Below are positions 3,932 through 24,064 of a DNA stretch of 26,007 nt, piece after piece. Origin of the DNA: a virus; the IMG/VR virus record IMGVR_UViG_3300025890_000136, positions 1-26,007 of that record; one strand, 5' to 3'. The notes beneath the pieces were generated by a model, which did not search any database, was not told the origin of the DNA, and saw only the letters and a program-made list of their open reading frames with translations. The position numbers were made by a program, and so were the translations under genes. How positions within the stretch are numbered: position 1 is the stretch's first letter; each line of letters opens with the position of its first letter.

Positions 3932-4549
3932 ATGGGAATTTGGGATAAAAAATACAACAATAGTATGGAAAAAAGATTATTTAATATTGAAACTAGAATG
4001 GAAGAGGGCGAAACAATGAATGTTGTTGGCCATGCATCAGTTTACAATACAATGAGTGAAGATTTAGGAGGTTTTAGAGAAATTATTGCACCTGGAGCAT
4101 TTGATGATGTTTTGGAAAATGATGTTAGAGCATTAATAAATCATGATGGAAATCTAATTTTGGCTAGAACAACAAGCGGAACATTAAAACTATCAACTGA
4201 TGAAAAGGGTTTAAAATATGAATTTGACATGCCCCAAACATCTTATGGTAAGGATTTAGCAATTTCAATGAAAAGGGGTGATGTAACACAATCATCTTTT
4301 GCATTTACAGTTGAAAATGATAATTGGGAAACAAAAGATGGAATGGATGTAAGAACAATCACAAAAGTAAAAAGATTATTTGATGTTTCTCCTGTTACTT
4401 ATCCCGCTTATCCAGATGCTGATGATTTAGTTATTGCACAAAGAGGATTAAGTGTTTACAAAGAAAAACAGGAAAGATTGAATGAGGAAAAAGATTTGGT
4501 TAAGCGTTCATTACTTAACTTAAATATTGAGTTACAAAAAAGGAAATAA
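3932..4549 (+). CDS. prohead maturation protease, HK97 family
   Basis: The 205-residue serine protease cleaves the capsid scaffold during head maturation. Family features are the VVGHASVYNTMSEDLGGFREII segment (residues 31-52, start of the fold), PGAF at 54-57, the catalytic His in LINHDG (H71) and the catalytic Ser in TQSSFAF (S121/S122). The motif VSPVTYPAYPDA near 160 is also typical. The C-terminal 40 residues are charged and helical and may be a self-cleaved tail. It lies between portal and capsid genes with 2-nt and 23-nt gaps. Confidence 0.92.
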   Translation: MGIWDKKYNNSMEKRLFNIETRMEEGETMNVVGHASVYNTMSEDLGGFREIIAPGAFDDVLENDVRALINHDGNLILARTTSGTLKLSTDEKGLKYEFDMPQTSYGKDLAISMKRGDVTQSSFAFTVENDNWETKDGMDVRTITKVKRLFDVSPVTYPAYPDADDLVIAQRGLSVYKEKQERLNEEKDLVKRSLLNLNIELQKRK

Positions 4550-4572
4550 TTATTAATAAAAAAGAAAGCAGA

Positions 4573-5793
4573 ATGAAAAATTCAAAAGAATTAAAAGAAA
4601 TGCGTTCAGATATTATCGGAAAATTAGAGGAAATAAAACTAATTGCAGAAAATGAAGAGCGTGATTTAACAACTGAGGAAAATACATCAGTTGATGAGTT
4701 ATTAACAGATGCAGACAATATGGATGCAAAAATTGAAAGAGCAGAAAAAATGGAAAAAGAAATCAGATTGGCAGCATCAACAGTTGGAACAACAGTTGCA
4801 AAGCCAGAAGTAAAAGAAGTTAGAGAATGGAGTTTATTTAAGGCAGTAAATGAAATGCGTAATGGTGGAAAACTTACAGGAGTTGAGGCGGAAATGCACC
4901 AAGAGGCAGAAAGAGAAAACAGAGGGGCATTAAGTGGAATTGGAATGCCATCATTTATGACTGAAAAAAGAACAATAGATCAAACTAACTCAGCAATTGC
5001 ACCATCAATAACAGGGGCATATGCAGATGCATTAATTCAAAGTGGAGTTTATTCACAAGTTGGATTAAATGATTTAGGAAACATGGCAGCTGATACAGTT
5101 ATTCCAGTAACAGGACAATCAACAGCAGCATGGGCAGGTGAAAATGCAACAGTTGCAGATACAGGAGCAGATTTTGGAAAAGTAACATTAACTCCAAGTA
5201 GATTATCAGCAGTTGCAAACATTTCAAATGTAATTTTAGCACAAAATGGTGGAGCAGAGGCAGCAATTATGGCTCAATTAGGGCAGCAAGTTGCATCAAA
5301 TATTGATGCTGCAATGTTCGGATCAGCAGATGTTGCTTCAGCACCTGGATCAATTGCAGGAACAACAGGCGTTTTGACATTTACTGAGGCAGCAGCAGCA
5401 GATTTAAGTGGAGATGCATTAACAGCAATCCAAACTTTAGCTGATGATCATGGTTTAGATGGAAATCTTGGATTTGTTTACAATTGGGCAGCTTACAAAG
5501 GTTTAATGTCAGATGCACAAGTTTCTAATGTTTCAGCAGCAATGCAAAATGATTTATTATTAGGAAGGCCAGTTTATTTCTCAAATGCACCAGCAACTGT
5601 TGCAGCAACATCAGCAGATGGTTTATTTGGTGATTTTGACAGACTTTATTTTTGTTCATTTGGGCCAACATCAATTACAGTTGATCCATACACGAATGCA
5701 ATGAATAATGAGGTAAGATTAGTATTAAATAACCATTATGGTTGGGGAGTTGCAGATGGAGCATCATTTGTTAAATTCACTTCATTAATATAA
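4573..5793 (+). CDS. major capsid protein, HK97 fold, with N-terminal scaffold domain
   Basis: The 406-residue protein is the head shell subunit. The first roughly 75 residues are charged and coiled-coil-like, as in the HK97 delta domain removed by the protease. The body starts near residue 110 and contains the shell-like segments DTVIPVTGQSTAAWAGENA and FGKVTLTPSRLSAVANISN, and ends with a typical RLVLNNHYGWGVADGASFVKF strand. Length fits the family. It has its own strong terminator 16 nt downstream. Ala-rich composition and GCA codon preference distinguish it from its neighbours, as expected for a highly expressed gene. Confidence 0.95.
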   Translation: MKNSKELKEMRSDIIGKLEEIKLIAENEERDLTTEENTSVDELLTDADNMDAKIERAEKMEKEIRLAASTVGTTVAKPEVKEVREWSLFKAVNEMRNGGKLTGVEAEMHQEAERENRGALSGIGMPSFMTEKRTIDQTNSAIAPSITGAYADALIQSGVYSQVGLNDLGNMAADTVIPVTGQSTAAWAGENATVADTGADFGKVTLTPSRLSAVANISNVILAQNGGAEAAIMAQLGQQVASNIDAAMFGSADVASAPGSIAGTTGVLTFTEAAAADLSGDALTAIQTLADDHGLDGNLGFVYNWAAYKGLMSDAQVSNVSAAMQNDLLLGRPVYFSNAPATVAATSADGLFGDFDRLYFCSFGPTSITVDPYTNAMNNEVRLVLNNHYGWGVADGASFVKFTSLI

Positions 5794-16976: not shown

Positions 16977-17008
16977 TTTTGCACAATTGTTAAAAAGGTG
17001 TATCTTTA
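16977..17008 (+). promoter_or_regulatory. Bacteroidota-type promoter for the replication block (cassette 1)
   Basis: TTTTG (16977-16981), a 19-bp spacer, then TATCTTTA (17001-17008) matches the TTTG/TAnnTTTG class. The spacer contains the palindrome ACAATTGT. GGTGT and ACACC flank the -7 box (16997-17001 and 17008-17012), an operator-like dyad. A CTAG occurs 61 bp upstream of the -7 box. The transcribed leader is A-rich. Positions 17001-17030 are identical to 19901-19930. Confidence 0.8.
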
Positions 17009-17038
17009 CACCATCAAACAAACAAAAAAATTAAAGAC

Positions 17039-17215
17039 ATGACAACATTAAAAAACACAAAAGGAACAAAGGCAGTAAACATTATCAATGATGCAACAGG
17101 AAGATTTAGAGCAATGTATGTTCAAATATATAATGGACATGAGCAAGTTTTAAATTCAAAAGATTATGCAACTTTTAAAAGTGCAGAAAAATGGGCCAAA
17201 TCAAAATTAAGTTAA
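17039..17215 (+). CDS. first early small protein, hypothetical
   Basis: A 58-residue protein encoded directly behind the promoter. The sequence has an early basic stretch (LKNTKGTKAV), a central beta-like FRAMYVQIYNGHEQVLNS and a C-terminal helix FKSAEKWAKSKL. It reads like a small folded alpha-beta protein, not a random ORF. It is followed by the GGGGGTGTAAAA hairpin. Being first in the early transcript it may be a host-takeover or regulatory protein, inferred from position only. Confidence 0.7.
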   Translation: MTTLKNTKGTKAVNIINDATGRFRAMYVQIYNGHEQVLNSKDYATFKSAEKWAKSKLS

Positions 17216-17637: not shown

Positions 17638-18042
17638 ATGACAAAACAAGAATTAACAAAGTTTTACAAATTACACAATTTATTGCCATCTGATGTTTAC
17701 AAAGACAAAAGAGGTTTTGTGATAATTACAAAAAGTGGAATTGAGAAAATACAGAATCAAAACAATATAAAAATTGCATTTGAAATGATAGTTTGCGACA
17801 TTGATAATGTTGTAATAAAAGCGGTAAGCATGAGGTTTGATGCATCAGCAGATGAGTTTGTGCCAATCATTGAAACTTTTGGAAGTGCTAACAAAGAGAA
17901 TTGTAGAAATACATTTAAGGTTGAAGTTGCAGAAAAAAGAGCATTGGCGAGATGCATAATAAAAACTATGCAATGGACAAATATGAAAGGTGAGGATGAG
18001 ATGGAGCATCAACCAAATGAAACTTTAAATAAATTGAAATGA
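17638..18042 (+). CDS. possible single-strand annealing protein (uncertain)
   Basis: The 134-residue protein has a two-strand region around VIITKSGIEKI...IKIAFEMIVCDIDNVVIKAVSMRF. It ends with the motif FGSANKENCRNTFKVEVAEKRALARCI near residues 81-107. A G-x-A-xxxN...AEKRAxxR ending is reminiscent of phage annealing or Rad52-like proteins, which also finish their core with an A-KRA helix. The neighbours (nuclease, SSB) form the usual annealing-protein set, which strengthens the guess. The protein is short for that family, so the call stays tentative. Confidence 0.4.
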   Translation: MTKQELTKFYKLHNLLPSDVYKDKRGFVIITKSGIEKIQNQNNIKIAFEMIVCDIDNVVIKAVSMRFDASADEFVPIIETFGSANKENCRNTFKVEVAEKRALARCIIKTMQWTNMKGEDEMEHQPNETLNKLK

Positions 18043-19026: not shown

Positions 19027-19397
19027 AAGCAGTAATTAAGGAAGCATTAAGATTATGTTCCAACATGTGGAATGTAGATTCAAAACAAGTAATAAACAAC
19101 AGATGCAGAAAGGCGGATGTTATAATGGCAAAAAGAATGTTTATATATTATCTTTACAACTTTGTGGAGATAGGCCATGCACACATTAAAAACCATGTGA
19201 AAGGATTAAACCATGCAACAAGCATTTACCATGTGAGGGAATTTAATAAACAATTGGATATTGATTATGCAATTAAATTAAAGTTCCAAAGATTTATGGA
19301 GGAAATGAAATCATTTAGTTTGTATGGTGAGGAATTTGAACAAAAAAAACAAGAGTTAGAACAAATAAAAGTTGAATTAAATAATTTAAAAAAATGA
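19023..19397 (+). CDS. stand-alone DnaA domain IV-like DNA-binding protein
   Basis: In this 124-residue protein, residues 10-75 resemble the C-terminal DNA-binding domain of DnaA. It reads CSNMWNVDSKQVINNRCRKADVIMAKRMFIYYL..., then the signature-like NHATSIYHVREF at 63-74, which corresponds to the DHTTVLHA signature of DnaA. There is no AAA+ domain. The C-terminal third is a Glu/Lys coiled coil. It may bind DnaA-box-like sequences at the phage origin or tether host proteins. It overlaps the nuclease and SSB genes by 4 nt each. The similarity is by eye and needs a profile search. Confidence 0.65.
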   Translation: MKAVIKEALRLCSNMWNVDSKQVINNRCRKADVIMAKRMFIYYLYNFVEIGHAHIKNHVKGLNHATSIYHVREFNKQLDIDYAIKLKFQRFMEEMKSFSLYGEEFEQKKQELEQIKVELNNLKK

Positions 19398-19708
19398 AAA
19401 TTACAGGAAAATTAGTTAGAGTTTTGGAAAAACAAGTTGGAACATCTAAAGCAGGAAAGGAATGGATGAAACAGGAGTTTGTTTTAAACACAGGATCAGA
19501 TTACAATCCAGAGGTTTGCCTCAGTGTATTTGGTGAGGACAAAGTAAAAGGATTGAAACAATTTAGCGAGGGGCAGGAATTAAGTGTTGATGTTAATGTT
19601 TACAGTAGGGAATGGAATGGAAAGTATTATCATTCAATTGATGCATGGCAAATTGAAGTTGTAGGAAGTAAACAAGATGTTGGGGATGATGGAGATTTGC
19701 CGTTTTAA
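19394..19708 (+). CDS. SSB-like protein, DUF3127 family
   Basis: The 104-residue OB-fold-like protein starts KITGKLVRVLEKQVGTSKAGKEWMKQEFVL, has VCLSVFGEDK at 41-50 and a YSREWNGKYYHSIDAW segment at 70-85. It finishes with the acidic tip DDGDLPF, the protein-recruiting tail of bacterial SSBs. This is the DUF3127 pattern common in Bacteroidota. It should coat single-stranded DNA during replication and recombination and recruit partners through the tail. It is the last gene of the first replication sub-operon. Confidence 0.88.
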   Translation: MKITGKLVRVLEKQVGTSKAGKEWMKQEFVLNTGSDYNPEVCLSVFGEDKVKGLKQFSEGQELSVDVNVYSREWNGKYYHSIDAWQIEVVGSKQDVGDDGDLPF

Positions 19709-19876: not shown

Positions 19877-19908
19877 TTTTACACAATTGTTAAAAATTGT
19901 TATCTTTA
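19877..19908 (+). promoter_or_regulatory. second early promoter (cassette 2)
   Basis: TTTTA (19877-19881), a 19-bp spacer and TATCTTTA (19901-19908) have the same geometry as the promoter at 16977. Fifteen spacer bases are identical (CACAATTGTTAAAAA), and the 30 bases from the -7 box into the leader are identical. The -33 box has TTTTA where cassette 1 has TTTTG, so it may be weaker or activator-dependent. Confidence 0.75.
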
Positions 19909-19939
19909 CACCATCAAACAAACAAAAAAAATAAACAAA

Positions 19940-20190: not shown

Positions 20191-20562
20191 ATGATAAAAG
20201 GATTTGAAACGATAACAGCCGATTTAAACGAACAAGAATTGGAATTGATGCCAACCATCATAAAAGGATTAAAAACAAAGCATGGCAAAGATATGGCCGT
20301 AACAGGCGGTAAAATAGCAGATGCAGTTGGGTTGAGTGGAATTAAAGTTCAGAAAATAATTAATGTGATAAGAGTTAAAAATTTAATTCCAGGTTTATGT
20401 GCGTGCGGCAAAGGTTATTTTATAGCCAATAACATTGAGGAATTGGACAATTATATTATAAGTTTAAAGCAAAGGATAAAGGCACAGGTTGATGTTTTAA
20501 ACGCATTAGAGCAACAAACAATAATTTTTGGAGGGACAGGGCAAACAACATTATTTGAATAA
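20191..20562 (+). CDS. winged-helix DNA-binding protein, hypothetical
   Basis: The 123-residue protein has a winged-helix core. It starts with helix LNEQELELMPTIIKGLKTK, then MAVTGGKIADAVGLSGIKVQKIINVIRVKNLI (recognition helix about residues 47-68) and a wing with CACGKGYFIANNI. A helical C-terminus (EELDNYIISLKQRIKAQVDVLNALEQQ) may dimerise. Probably a transcription or replication regulator of the early genes. It is followed one base later by the next gene. Confidence 0.75.
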   Translation: MIKGFETITADLNEQELELMPTIIKGLKTKHGKDMAVTGGKIADAVGLSGIKVQKIINVIRVKNLIPGLCACGKGYFIANNIEELDNYIISLKQRIKAQVDVLNALEQQTIIFGGTGQTTLFE

Positions 20563-20563
20563 T

Positions 20564-21226
20564 ATGGAAAGAGATTTTAAAGGGATATGGATTCCAAAAG
20601 AGGTTTGGTTAAATAAAGATTTGAAACTAATTGAGAAATTGTTTTTAGTTGAGATTGATTCATTGGATAATGAAACAGGATGTTGGGCATCAAATAAATA
20701 CTTTGGTGAGTTCTTTGGAATTTCAAAGGGCAGATGTTCCCAAATAATAAATTCATTGGAGCAAAATGGTTTTATATTAATAAAATATGAATATGAGGGA
20801 AAGGAAATAAAAAGCCGAACAATTAGGGTAGTTAAAAAATTAAATAGGGTATTTAATAAAGGTGCAGGGGGTAGTAAATATATTAAAGGGGGGTATTTAG
20901 AAAATGATAAAGATAATAATACAATAACTAATAATACAACTAATAATAAAACTACTAAAGGGAGATTTAAAAAACCTTTAATTTCTGAAATTTCTTTTTA
21001 CATTGAGGAAAGAGGCAATAAAATTAATGCAAACAAATTTTTTGATTATTATGAATCAAATGGTTGGAAAGTTGGGAAAAACAAAATGAAATGTTGGAAA
21101 GCAGCCGTTAGGAATTGGGAAAATATGCGAAAAGATAAGGGCCAAATGGAATCAAAAGTTATGGAAAGATTGTCAAGCCATGACAAAGCAAAACAAATGT
21201 TAAAAAATATGCACAATGGAAATTAA
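20564..21226 (+). CDS. replisome organiser-like protein (winged helix N-terminus)
   Basis: The 220-residue protein starts at ATG 20564; an upstream TTG at 20528 lies inside the preceding gene and is rejected. The N-terminal 85 residues form a winged helix typical of phage replication proteins (GIWIPKEVWLNKDLKLIEKLFLVEIDSL, then NKYFGEFFGISKGRCSQIINSLEQNGFI). After an Asn/Thr/Lys linker comes a second helical region with FFDYYESNGWKVGKNKMKCWKAAVRNW, the familiar tail of DnaD/RepO-like initiators. It should bind the phage origin and load the host helicase; no helicase is encoded here. Confidence 0.8.
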   Translation: MERDFKGIWIPKEVWLNKDLKLIEKLFLVEIDSLDNETGCWASNKYFGEFFGISKGRCSQIINSLEQNGFILIKYEYEGKEIKSRTIRVVKKLNRVFNKGAGGSKYIKGGYLENDKDNNTITNNTTNNKTTKGRFKKPLISEISFYIEERGNKINANKFFDYYESNGWKVGKNKMKCWKAAVRNWENMRKDKGQMESKVMERLSSHDKAKQMLKNMHNGN

Positions 21227-21236
21227 AGAAATAAAC
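21215..21236 (+). repeat. 22-bp direct repeat, left copy flanking the methyltransferase gene
   Basis: Identical to 22185-22206 over 22 bases, covering the ATG and the first six codons of the methyltransferase (reading MEIKEIN). The copies are 970 bp apart and bracket exactly one complete gene. Recombination between them would remove the methyltransferase and leave the next gene intact. Confidence 0.9.
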
Positions 21237-22184
21237 AAAGTATTTAATATTGATTTTTTAAATAATGATTTGCCAGATAAATGTGCAAATTTGATAATTG
21301 CAGATCCTCCATATTACAAAACTAAAGGGGAATTTGATTTTATTTGGAAAACTTTTGATGATTATTTAAAAGATGTTGAAAAATGGGCAATTGAATGCAA
21401 AAGATTATTGGCAGACAATGGGACATTACTATGGTATGGAGATGCAAAAAATATTGCATATTCTCAAATCATTTTTGATAAGTATTTTAATTTATTAAAT
21501 TGTGTAGTTTGGGAAAATACAAACGATCACAAACAGCAAATAAGATTTAATGAAGATTTACGAACATTTGCACCTCTTACAGAAAGGATTTTAATGTATG
21601 AAAAAAAAGGAGATAAAACAGGAGGTGAATTAATATTTGATCAGTTTTTAAAACCAAATAATCCATTTAGTAAATATTTGAAAATTGAGTTTAAAAATGC
21701 AAAGGTAACAAATAAAGAAATTTCTAAATTATTCCCAAGCCGAACAGGTGGGTTAACGGGTTGTGTTTCTAATTGGTTAAATGGGGATAATGTAATAACA
21801 AAAGATCAATATTTGAAAGTTCGTAAATACTTAAATAATAAATATTTGAGGAAAGAGTATGAAGATTTGAGGAAAGAGTATGAAGATTTGAGGAGGCCTT
21901 TTAACAACTTTTTACACTTAGGAGATGTAATAAAATTACCAAATTATGAAACAAATAATTATGATCATGCTACAATAAAACCAGAAAAATTGGCAAGAAT
22001 ATTTTTAAACACTTGCAGCAGAAAAGATGATTTGGTAATTGTCCCATTTGCAGGAAGTGGCACAGAATGTGCAATGAGTGTTAAGGAGGGCAGAAAATTT
22101 ATTGGTTATGAAATAACAGAAAAACATGCTACAATGAGTCAAAAAAGAGTTGATGAGATATTAAAACAACCAAAATTATTTTAA
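21216..22184 (+). CDS. orphan DNA N6-adenine/N4-cytosine methyltransferase, beta-type
   Basis: The 322-residue enzyme is of the N6_N4_Mtase family. DPPY is at residues 30-33 and FAGSGT at 278-283; motif IV before motif I makes it the beta order. An HTH-like insert at about 163-207 probably reads target DNA. A heptad LRKEYED repeat at 211-226 precedes RRPFNNF. The TIKPEKL segment at 253-259 is the usual lead-in to motif I. No restriction enzyme lies nearby, so its job is likely protection from host restriction, or regulation. The gene is bracketed by a 22-bp direct repeat. Confidence 0.9.
   Translation: MEIKEINKVFNIDFLNNDLPDKCANLIIADPPYYKTKGEFDFIWKTFDDYLKDVEKWAIECKRLLADNGTLLWYGDAKNIAYSQIIFDKYFNLLNCVVWENTNDHKQQIRFNEDLRTFAPLTERILMYEKKGDKTGGELIFDQFLKPNNPFSKYLKIEFKNAKVTNKEISKLFPSRTGGLTGCVSNWLNGDNVITKDQYLKVRKYLNNKYLRKEYEDLRKEYEDLRRPFNNFLHLGDVIKLPNYETNNYDHATIKPEKLARIFLNTCSRKDDLVIVPFAGSGTECAMSVKEGRKFIGYEITEKHATMSQKRVDEILKQPKLF
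21846..21893 (+). repeat. in-frame 21-bp tandem repeat in the methyltransferase gene
   Basis: Two perfect 21-bp units (21846-21866 and 21867-21887) plus the first six bases of a third encode LRKEYED twice and then LR. The unit is seven codons, so copy-number change would alter a helical linker by whole heptads while keeping the frame. Confidence 0.9.
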
Positions 22185-22206
22185 AATGGAAATTAAAGAA
22201 ATAAAC
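22185..22206 (+). repeat. 22-bp direct repeat, right copy flanking the methyltransferase gene
   Basis: Second copy of the repeat at 21215, at the start of the next gene, covering the ATG and the codons for MEIKEIN. The two proteins diverge immediately afterwards. Confidence 0.9.
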
Positions 22207-22581
22207 CAACAAGATTTGGAGTTAATGTGCGTTGATGTATTAACACAAACATATGCAGATTTAGGGCAAAAGGATAATGATCCGCAAAACAAAGTTATGT
22301 TGGCCCAAAGTTTAGCAAAGGATTTAAAAAGGCGTTATGCATTTATGCCATTTGATGCAGTAGTTTTGGCATTTGAGAATGGAGTGCGTAACACAGAATT
22401 ATTTGTTGTTAGTGCATCAACCTGGTGCAAGTGGTTAAACAAGATGAAAGCAGAAATTTGGGATGGTTGGCATCATTTTGAGTTGGGCAATCATCATGTT
22501 ATTCAACCGCATGTTAAAGCAATAATGGAGCAGCAACCAAAATTAATGATTGAGTATAAACAAAAGTTAAGATTAAATTAG
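22186..22581 (+). CDS. conserved hypothetical protein
   Basis: The 131-residue protein has helical segments (DLELMCVDVLTQTYADLG, KVMLAQSLAKDLKRRYAFMPFDAVVLAFENGVRN) and a Trp-rich STWCKWLNKMKAEIWDGWHHFE region. Its first seven residues are identical to those of the methyltransferase just upstream because of the direct repeat. The pattern of a helical body with a TWxKWL segment recurs in Bacteroidota phages, as far as I recall; the role is unknown. Confidence 0.65.
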   Translation: MEIKEINQQDLELMCVDVLTQTYADLGQKDNDPQNKVMLAQSLAKDLKRRYAFMPFDAVVLAFENGVRNTELFVVSASTWCKWLNKMKAEIWDGWHHFELGNHHVIQPHVKAIMEQQPKLMIEYKQKLRLN

Positions 22582-23562: not shown

Positions 23563-23727
23563 ATGTTGAAAACTAATGTTTTACTTTACACCATGAAAGA
23601 ATTTGGAAGATTATTAATCACAACTGTTTTGTTGCCATTTATATTGGTTGCATCAGTTTTAATGTTATTTTTTGTAATACATGAAAGTTTTTGGCACAGT
23701 AAAGGGGGGGAAACTAAAACTGAATAA
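23563..23727 (+). CDS. small single-span membrane protein
   Basis: The 54-residue protein from ATG 23563 has a long hydrophobic stretch (LLITTVLLPFILVASVLMLFFVI, about 17-39) and a short polar tail. A shorter start at 23593 is possible. It begins 3 nt after the DUF3310 gene and overlaps the NinB-like gene by 47 nt. Role unknown. Confidence 0.45.
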   Translation: MLKTNVLLYTMKEFGRLLITTVLLPFILVASVLMLFFVIHESFWHSKGGETKTE

Positions 23728-24064
23728 CAGCAGAAAGTTCCAGGATTCATTAAGAGAATTTGAGGGAATGGATGTTGAGTTAAGAATTAGGAAAAGGAGT
23801 GCAAACAGATCAAAGGAGCAGAACAGTTTGTATTGGAGTTGGATTGATATATTATCAAAAGAAATAGGATACACAAAAGAAGAGATGCACACATTAATAA
23901 AATATAAATTCCTTAAAAGAAATGTTGTTGATGACAATGGAGAAGAGCAGGAAGTAATTAAAAGCACAACTACACTTACAACAAAAGAATTTAGTTTGCT
24001 TATGAATGATGTTTTGTTTTGGAGTAATAACACATTAAACATTAATTTGCCGAGCAATGAGTGA
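23681..24064 (+). CDS. NinB-like recombination protein
   Basis: The 127-residue protein has the NinB/YbcN pattern: IRKRSANRSKEQNSLYWSWIDILSKEIGYTKEEMHTLIKYKFL at residues 36-78, with the RSxxQNxxYW core, followed by STTTLTTKEFSLLMNDVLFW. Members of this family bind single-stranded DNA and assist phage recombination. It overlaps the VRR-NUC gene by 8 nt. It adds to the nuclease and SSB set further upstream. Confidence 0.75.
   Translation: MKVFGTVKGGKLKLNNSRKFQDSLREFEGMDVELRIRKRSANRSKEQNSLYWSWIDILSKEIGYTKEEMHTLIKYKFLKRNVVDDNGEEQEVIKSTTTLTTKEFSLLMNDVLFWSNNTLNINLPSNE

Follow-up and report, generated by a model that had tools for sequence, protein, structure and literature searches.

In the mycobacteriophages Island3 and Brujita, the presence or absence of a gene has been explained by a short direct repeat of ~50-60 bp at gene ends, one phage having a single copy (PMC3029335). 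For lambdoid phages, the same article discusses conserved boundary sequences, short homologies at gene boundaries that edge swapped modules, and orf has been reported to contribute to mosaicism in these phages (PMC3945230). In bacterial genomes, restriction-modification genes have been reported to insert with a long, variable target duplication (Nobusato et al. 2000, as cited in PMC3031569). In the present study, a locus resembling each of these systems in part is described from a 26,007-nucleotide stretch of a viral record (IMGVR_UViG_3300025890_000136; hereafter, the window), which has a GC content of 32% and, together with its relatives, probably represents a phage group infecting Bacteroidetes.

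As in Island3 and Brujita, whether one gene is present or absent is linked to a short direct repeat, which is single when the gene is absent. However, the mycobacteriophage repeat lies at gene 3' ends and concerns a gene of no known function, whereas the repeat described herein extends over start codons and a stop/start overlap and the site accepts several different DNA-modification genes. As with the lambdoid boundary sequences, the same short sequences edge exchanged modules in different phages, but here the insert lies between two copies of one boundary sequence, which is coding in three genes; recombination through boundary sequences at this junction is putative. In common with the restriction-modification insertions, direct repeats flank the insert and one copy is found in empty relatives, the latter being 65-73% identical in the flanking proteins rather than isogenic. 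Those insertions concern bacteria and long, variable duplications, whereas the present cases concern solitary methylases of phages and short duplications (12-56 bp exact), some at gene overlaps; at the window junction the repeat is 22 bp and encloses the methylase alone. Compared with open papers, what may be new is the combination of a phage start-codon or gene-overlap site, a short duplication and interchangeable modification genes, and closer precedent may exist.

Results

The repeat, AATGGAAATTAAAGAAATAAAC, is an exact 22-nt direct repeat at positions 21215-21236 and 22185-22206, with starts 970 nt apart, and extends to 25 nt if one mismatch is allowed. It ranks third by length among the exact repeats in the window, and no further occurrence was found in the record, even with two mismatches. 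None of 240 Markov-simulated windows (orders 1, 2, 3 and 5) reached 22 nt, the maximum being 20. The sole gene between the copies (21216-22184, + strand) encodes a solitary N6/N4-type DNA methyltransferase of 322 aa (Pfam PF01555 N6_N4_Mtase, E 3.9e-33, 115.7 bits against a cut-off of 26.7 over residues 25-309; phrog_67, E 2.8e-43), with DNA methylation and protection from restriction as its predicted function. Both this gene and the next open reading frame (22186-22581, + strand) have their ATG and codons 2-7 within the repeat. Thus, the perfect repeat, the one complete methyltransferase gene enclosed by it and the start codon plus six further codons common to two genes, as given in a preliminary description of this DNA, are all confirmed, and the two genes are not paralogues. 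In addition, the upstream gene ends within the left copy, with its last codons and stop (AAT GGA AAT TAA) at 21215-21226. The left copy is thus read in two frames, and this turns out to be the key to interpreting the repeat. Both copies are also present, exact and 976 nt apart, in the independent metagenome contig L005 (IMGVR 3300025873_000029), and the repeat is therefore not an assembly artefact; the right copy is exact in L003, L004 and L006 as well.

The upstream gene (20564-21226, + strand) encodes a replication initiator-like protein of 220 aa (PF13730 HTH_36; PHROG replication initiation / O-like). Its N-terminal half (20564-20900) is of two dissimilar types among close relatives, and its C-terminal half is common to them. 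The downstream gene encodes an all-helical protein of 131 aa (structure model, pLDDT 82.7), for which no family match was obtained in profile searches and no relatives were found in sequenced phages and bacterial genomes. Among solved structures, the model gave its best match to 9oa1, the P loader of phage lambda (Z 6.8 over 80 residues, rmsd 2.7), which is weak for a helical protein; as a weak lead from modelling, this protein might be a lambda P-like helicase loader and would then form an O-P-like replication pair with the upstream gene.

The same junction was examined in ten viral contigs that have the same upstream and downstream genes and were obtained from scans of viral contigs. It is occupied in six and empty in four. 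Another allele of the window methylase occupies the junction in L005 and in L117, the latter being a diverged phage with the L005 allele; a Mom-type modification protein (PF25680) is found in L003, and a second, smaller methylase family in L004, L006 and L010. The empty junctions are those of L008, L009, L141 and the more distant L011. In L008, L009 and L141, the last codons of the upstream gene overlap the downstream start by 11 nt, in single copy (ATGGAAATTAG or ATGGAAATTAA; for example AAAATGGAAATTAGAAACATAAAC in L008), whereas the overlap in L011 differs and has 4 nt. Judged from these sequences, the overlap present once in the three empty phages is what stands twice around the methylase. 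The suggestions that the junction might be a natural swap site and the repeat a scar of insertion, which the preliminary description had proposed to check by comparing relatives, are both borne out by this comparison, and the possibility it had raised that relatives always carry the methylase is contradicted. At the Mom and second-methylase junctions, the left boundary matches the right over 12 nt with one mismatch, without a 22-bp left copy (boundary sequences around the three occupant types: left AATGGRAATTAA, right TTTTAAAATGGAAAT). Most occupants have no intact 22-bp left copy, and swapping therefore does not need the 22-bp repeat.

Several lines of evidence bear on exchange and duplication. 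First, in the five-phage clade formed by the window, L003, L004, L005 and L006, the 120-nt flanks of the occupant are 85-98% identical, and identity just inside falls to 27-42% where the occupants differ. Second, the methylases of L005 and L117 are 98.5, 98.1 and 92.8% identical in their N-terminal, middle and C-terminal parts, the flanks of these two contigs are 76.5 and 77.4% identical, and identity changes at the repeat copies. Horizontal movement of the methylase, with breakpoints at the junctions, is thereby shown. Occupant type required six changes on the flank tree, against a shuffled mean of 6.1, and does not follow this tree, most branches of which are unsupported; the phylogeny was therefore set aside as a means of deciding between insertion and deletion. 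Third, the left copy of L117 equals the single copy of L141 over 28 nt (CAAGATGGAAATTAAACAAATAAATAAA), whereas the right copy of L117 itself has diverged. The first codons of the methylase are therefore best read as a copy of the downstream-gene start. For most methylase homologues elsewhere, the match to the window begins only at about residues 3-6. These homologues begin with an (I/L)N-like motif, and the ATAAAC ('IN') part of the repeat may therefore be the methylase's own sequence.

The window and L005 alleles of the methylase are ~91% identical in nucleotides at their ends and 55% in the middle (21511-21990), which is a probable swapped target-recognition region. Within the methylase, an in-frame 21-bp tandem repeat (21844-21894; LRKEYED units) has also been observed, and the L005, L117 and L096 alleles differ in its copy number or spacing. 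A second slot, empty in the window (20560-20566, + strand), lies where the stop of a phrog_2113 gene directly precedes the ATG of the replication gene, and different methylases are found there in L003 (1512-2156), L005 (2751-3362) and L006 (3309-3725). At a third site, after the 131-aa gene, L004 carries a cytosine methylase (3933-4583). The C-termini of several modification genes are alike (KQPKLF, 22167-22184; SQIKMF, L004 3525-3542; QAQLF, L004 4566-4583) and are reminiscent of sliding-clamp binding motifs.

The same architecture was observed for this methylase family at unrelated sites. In L089, a member of the family separates the genes of the small and large terminase subunits, with the 12-nt overlap ATGGCATATAAA on both sides (small-subunit end GGC ATA TAA; large-subunit start ATG GCA TAT AAA). 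In L096, an exact 56-bp repeat at a methylase locus spans the start of the following gene, and in L129 and L086 a methylase is preceded by an imperfect duplicate of its downstream neighbour's start. In a survey of 1976 genes of at least 80 aa in the first 217 sequences, which had been fetched by methylase and replication queries, 36 genes lay between the copies of an exact repeat of 13 nt or longer and were counted as bracketed. Fifteen of the 36 are DNA methylases by family searches or by a motif test that was applied uniformly to all genes. By this test, bracketing was found for 11 of 102 methylase-like genes and for 25 of the remaining 1874 genes (odds ratio 8.9, p 8e-7), on simple gene calls, with some of the counted loci related and with a hypothesis that had itself been drawn from some of these data. 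After merging of similar proteins, 6 of 28 methylase clusters and 25 of 1199 others were bracketed (p 4e-5), and a control in which gene starts and ends were paired at random gave ~0.5%. A second locus set was fetched afterwards via a cytosine methylase family and tested with the same settings, a search with the second methylase family having given too few new loci; here, 5 of 99 methylases and 9 of 644 others were bracketed (p 0.028), or 3 of 99 and 0 of 644 with repeats of at least 20 nt. Some bracketing repeats are promoter- or leader-like (L027, L023, L285), and in L229, L308 and L179 the conserved methylase start motif MKILNLY is involved. Repeats resembling Shine-Dalgarno sequences or promoters, around methylases and other genes, were retained in the counts and excluded as insertion examples.

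Discussion

Herein, we propose that insertion of a methylase gene at a true swap site left the stop/start overlap in two copies and that these are the repeat, a reading to which we assign a probability of about 0.7. The ancestral junction would probably have been empty, with an 11-nt overlap between the last codons of the replication gene and the start of the gene that follows. Since stop and start overlap, there is no plain insertion point that spares both neighbours. The methylase gene would have entered with a duplication of the overlap plus ~10 nt, and the 22-bp repeat would be that duplication: the left copy would keep the end of the upstream gene and provide the methylase with its start and initial codons (MEIKEIN), while the start of the downstream gene would be kept by the right copy. 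The duplication presumably arose during the insertion itself, via short-homology (illegitimate or annealing-driven) recombination, and selection may have let only duplicating insertions survive. Each copy being coding sequence, the repeat would then have been kept as a scar. Close relatives carry other modification genes, namely the second methylase family and Mom, at this junction, and the breakpoints fall within the same few bases. The direction of the event, insertion rather than deletion, is weakly indicated and rests mainly on the distant empty contig L011, since the flanking proteins of the empty relatives share only 65-73% identity with those of the window.

The first alternative is an active cassette, in which the 22-bp repeats would recombine often in phage populations and reversibly delete or exchange the methylase. 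The repeats are indeed in direct orientation, and an exact deletion would break neither neighbour, the state that is seen in L008, L009 and L141; precise loss of the methylase by one crossover is therefore possible. The phage also encodes a NinB/Orf-type recombination mediator (23681-24064, + strand; phrog_72, E 2.9e-21), a possible helper of short-homology exchange, and a single-strand DNA-binding-like protein (DUF3127; 19394-19708, + strand; PF11325, phrog_4932). However, 22 bp is short, no empty genome was found in the tight clade of the very close relatives of the window, and the Mom and second-methylase junctions have no 22-bp left copy. The deletion by single crossover put forward in the preliminary description thus stands as to topology, with empty phages that resemble the predicted product, whereas a very close empty relative is missing and other occupants lack the left copy. 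On balance, we consider frequent recombination through the repeats unlikely. A Rad52-like annealing protein, suggested by eye at 17638-18042, was rejected, with no family match and a structure model too poor for use (pLDDT 44).

In a second alternative, ordinary homologous recombination in the conserved flanks would account for the exchange, and the repeat would be a selected translation-initiation sequence common to two genes, with no duplication. A-rich starts would suit translation in Bacteroidetes, and the flanks within the clade, with their 85-98% identity, are long enough for homologous exchange. However, no other gene in these genomes was found to start with the 22 nt, the left copy of L117 tracks the sequence of an empty junction, and the breakpoints of L117 lie at the gene edges although its flanks are only ~76% identical. 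These results make this explanation quite unlikely. That two AT-rich gene starts agree by chance or through shared codon usage is very improbable and was rejected. The GC content is low and A-rich starts are common, but a coincidence over codons 2-7 was computed at ~1e-8 per gene pair, the simulations never matched the repeat, and comparable repeats stand at the methylase sites of L089 and L096. A transposon or insertion sequence was also rejected, no transposase being present and the methylase reading frame alone filling the space between the copies.

Returning to the duplication of the overlap upon insertion, we tentatively extend it to a wider class: phage modification genes might insert into tight or overlapping stop/start junctions and duplicate them, each newcomer using a duplicate of the neighbouring gene's start for its translation. 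Such a general route is possible but rather less probable than the event at the window junction. In phage operons, genes are packed to the point of overlapping, and anti-restriction genes are nevertheless gained and lost; a duplicated stop/start overlap would offer a simple way in, with the neighbours unbroken and the newcomer still translated. If the general route is true, start-spanning repeats would also permit clean loss, and gene gain and loss by short homology in phages could be read directly from sequence. The duplicated overlap would thus be a signature of modification-gene gains, and the present junction is named as one where swapping is testable.

Two further observations concern repeated sequences elsewhere. 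In L179 (3647, 4242), L308 (2102, 2757) and L229 (3401, 3989, 4641), a small membrane-like gene comes directly after a gene of a cytosine methylase family, and the start of the small gene (ATGAAGATAYTAA) is a copy of MKIL, with which the methylase begins; at these loci, the shared start may run from the methylase to its neighbour. In the window itself, an imperfect direct repeat at 16982-17030 and 19882-19930, with 30 nt exact inside (CACAATTGTTAAAAA...TATCTTTACACCATCAAACAAACAAAAAAA), lies just upstream of the gene starts at 17039 and 19940 and resembles a promoter and leader of the Bacteroidetes type in duplicate.
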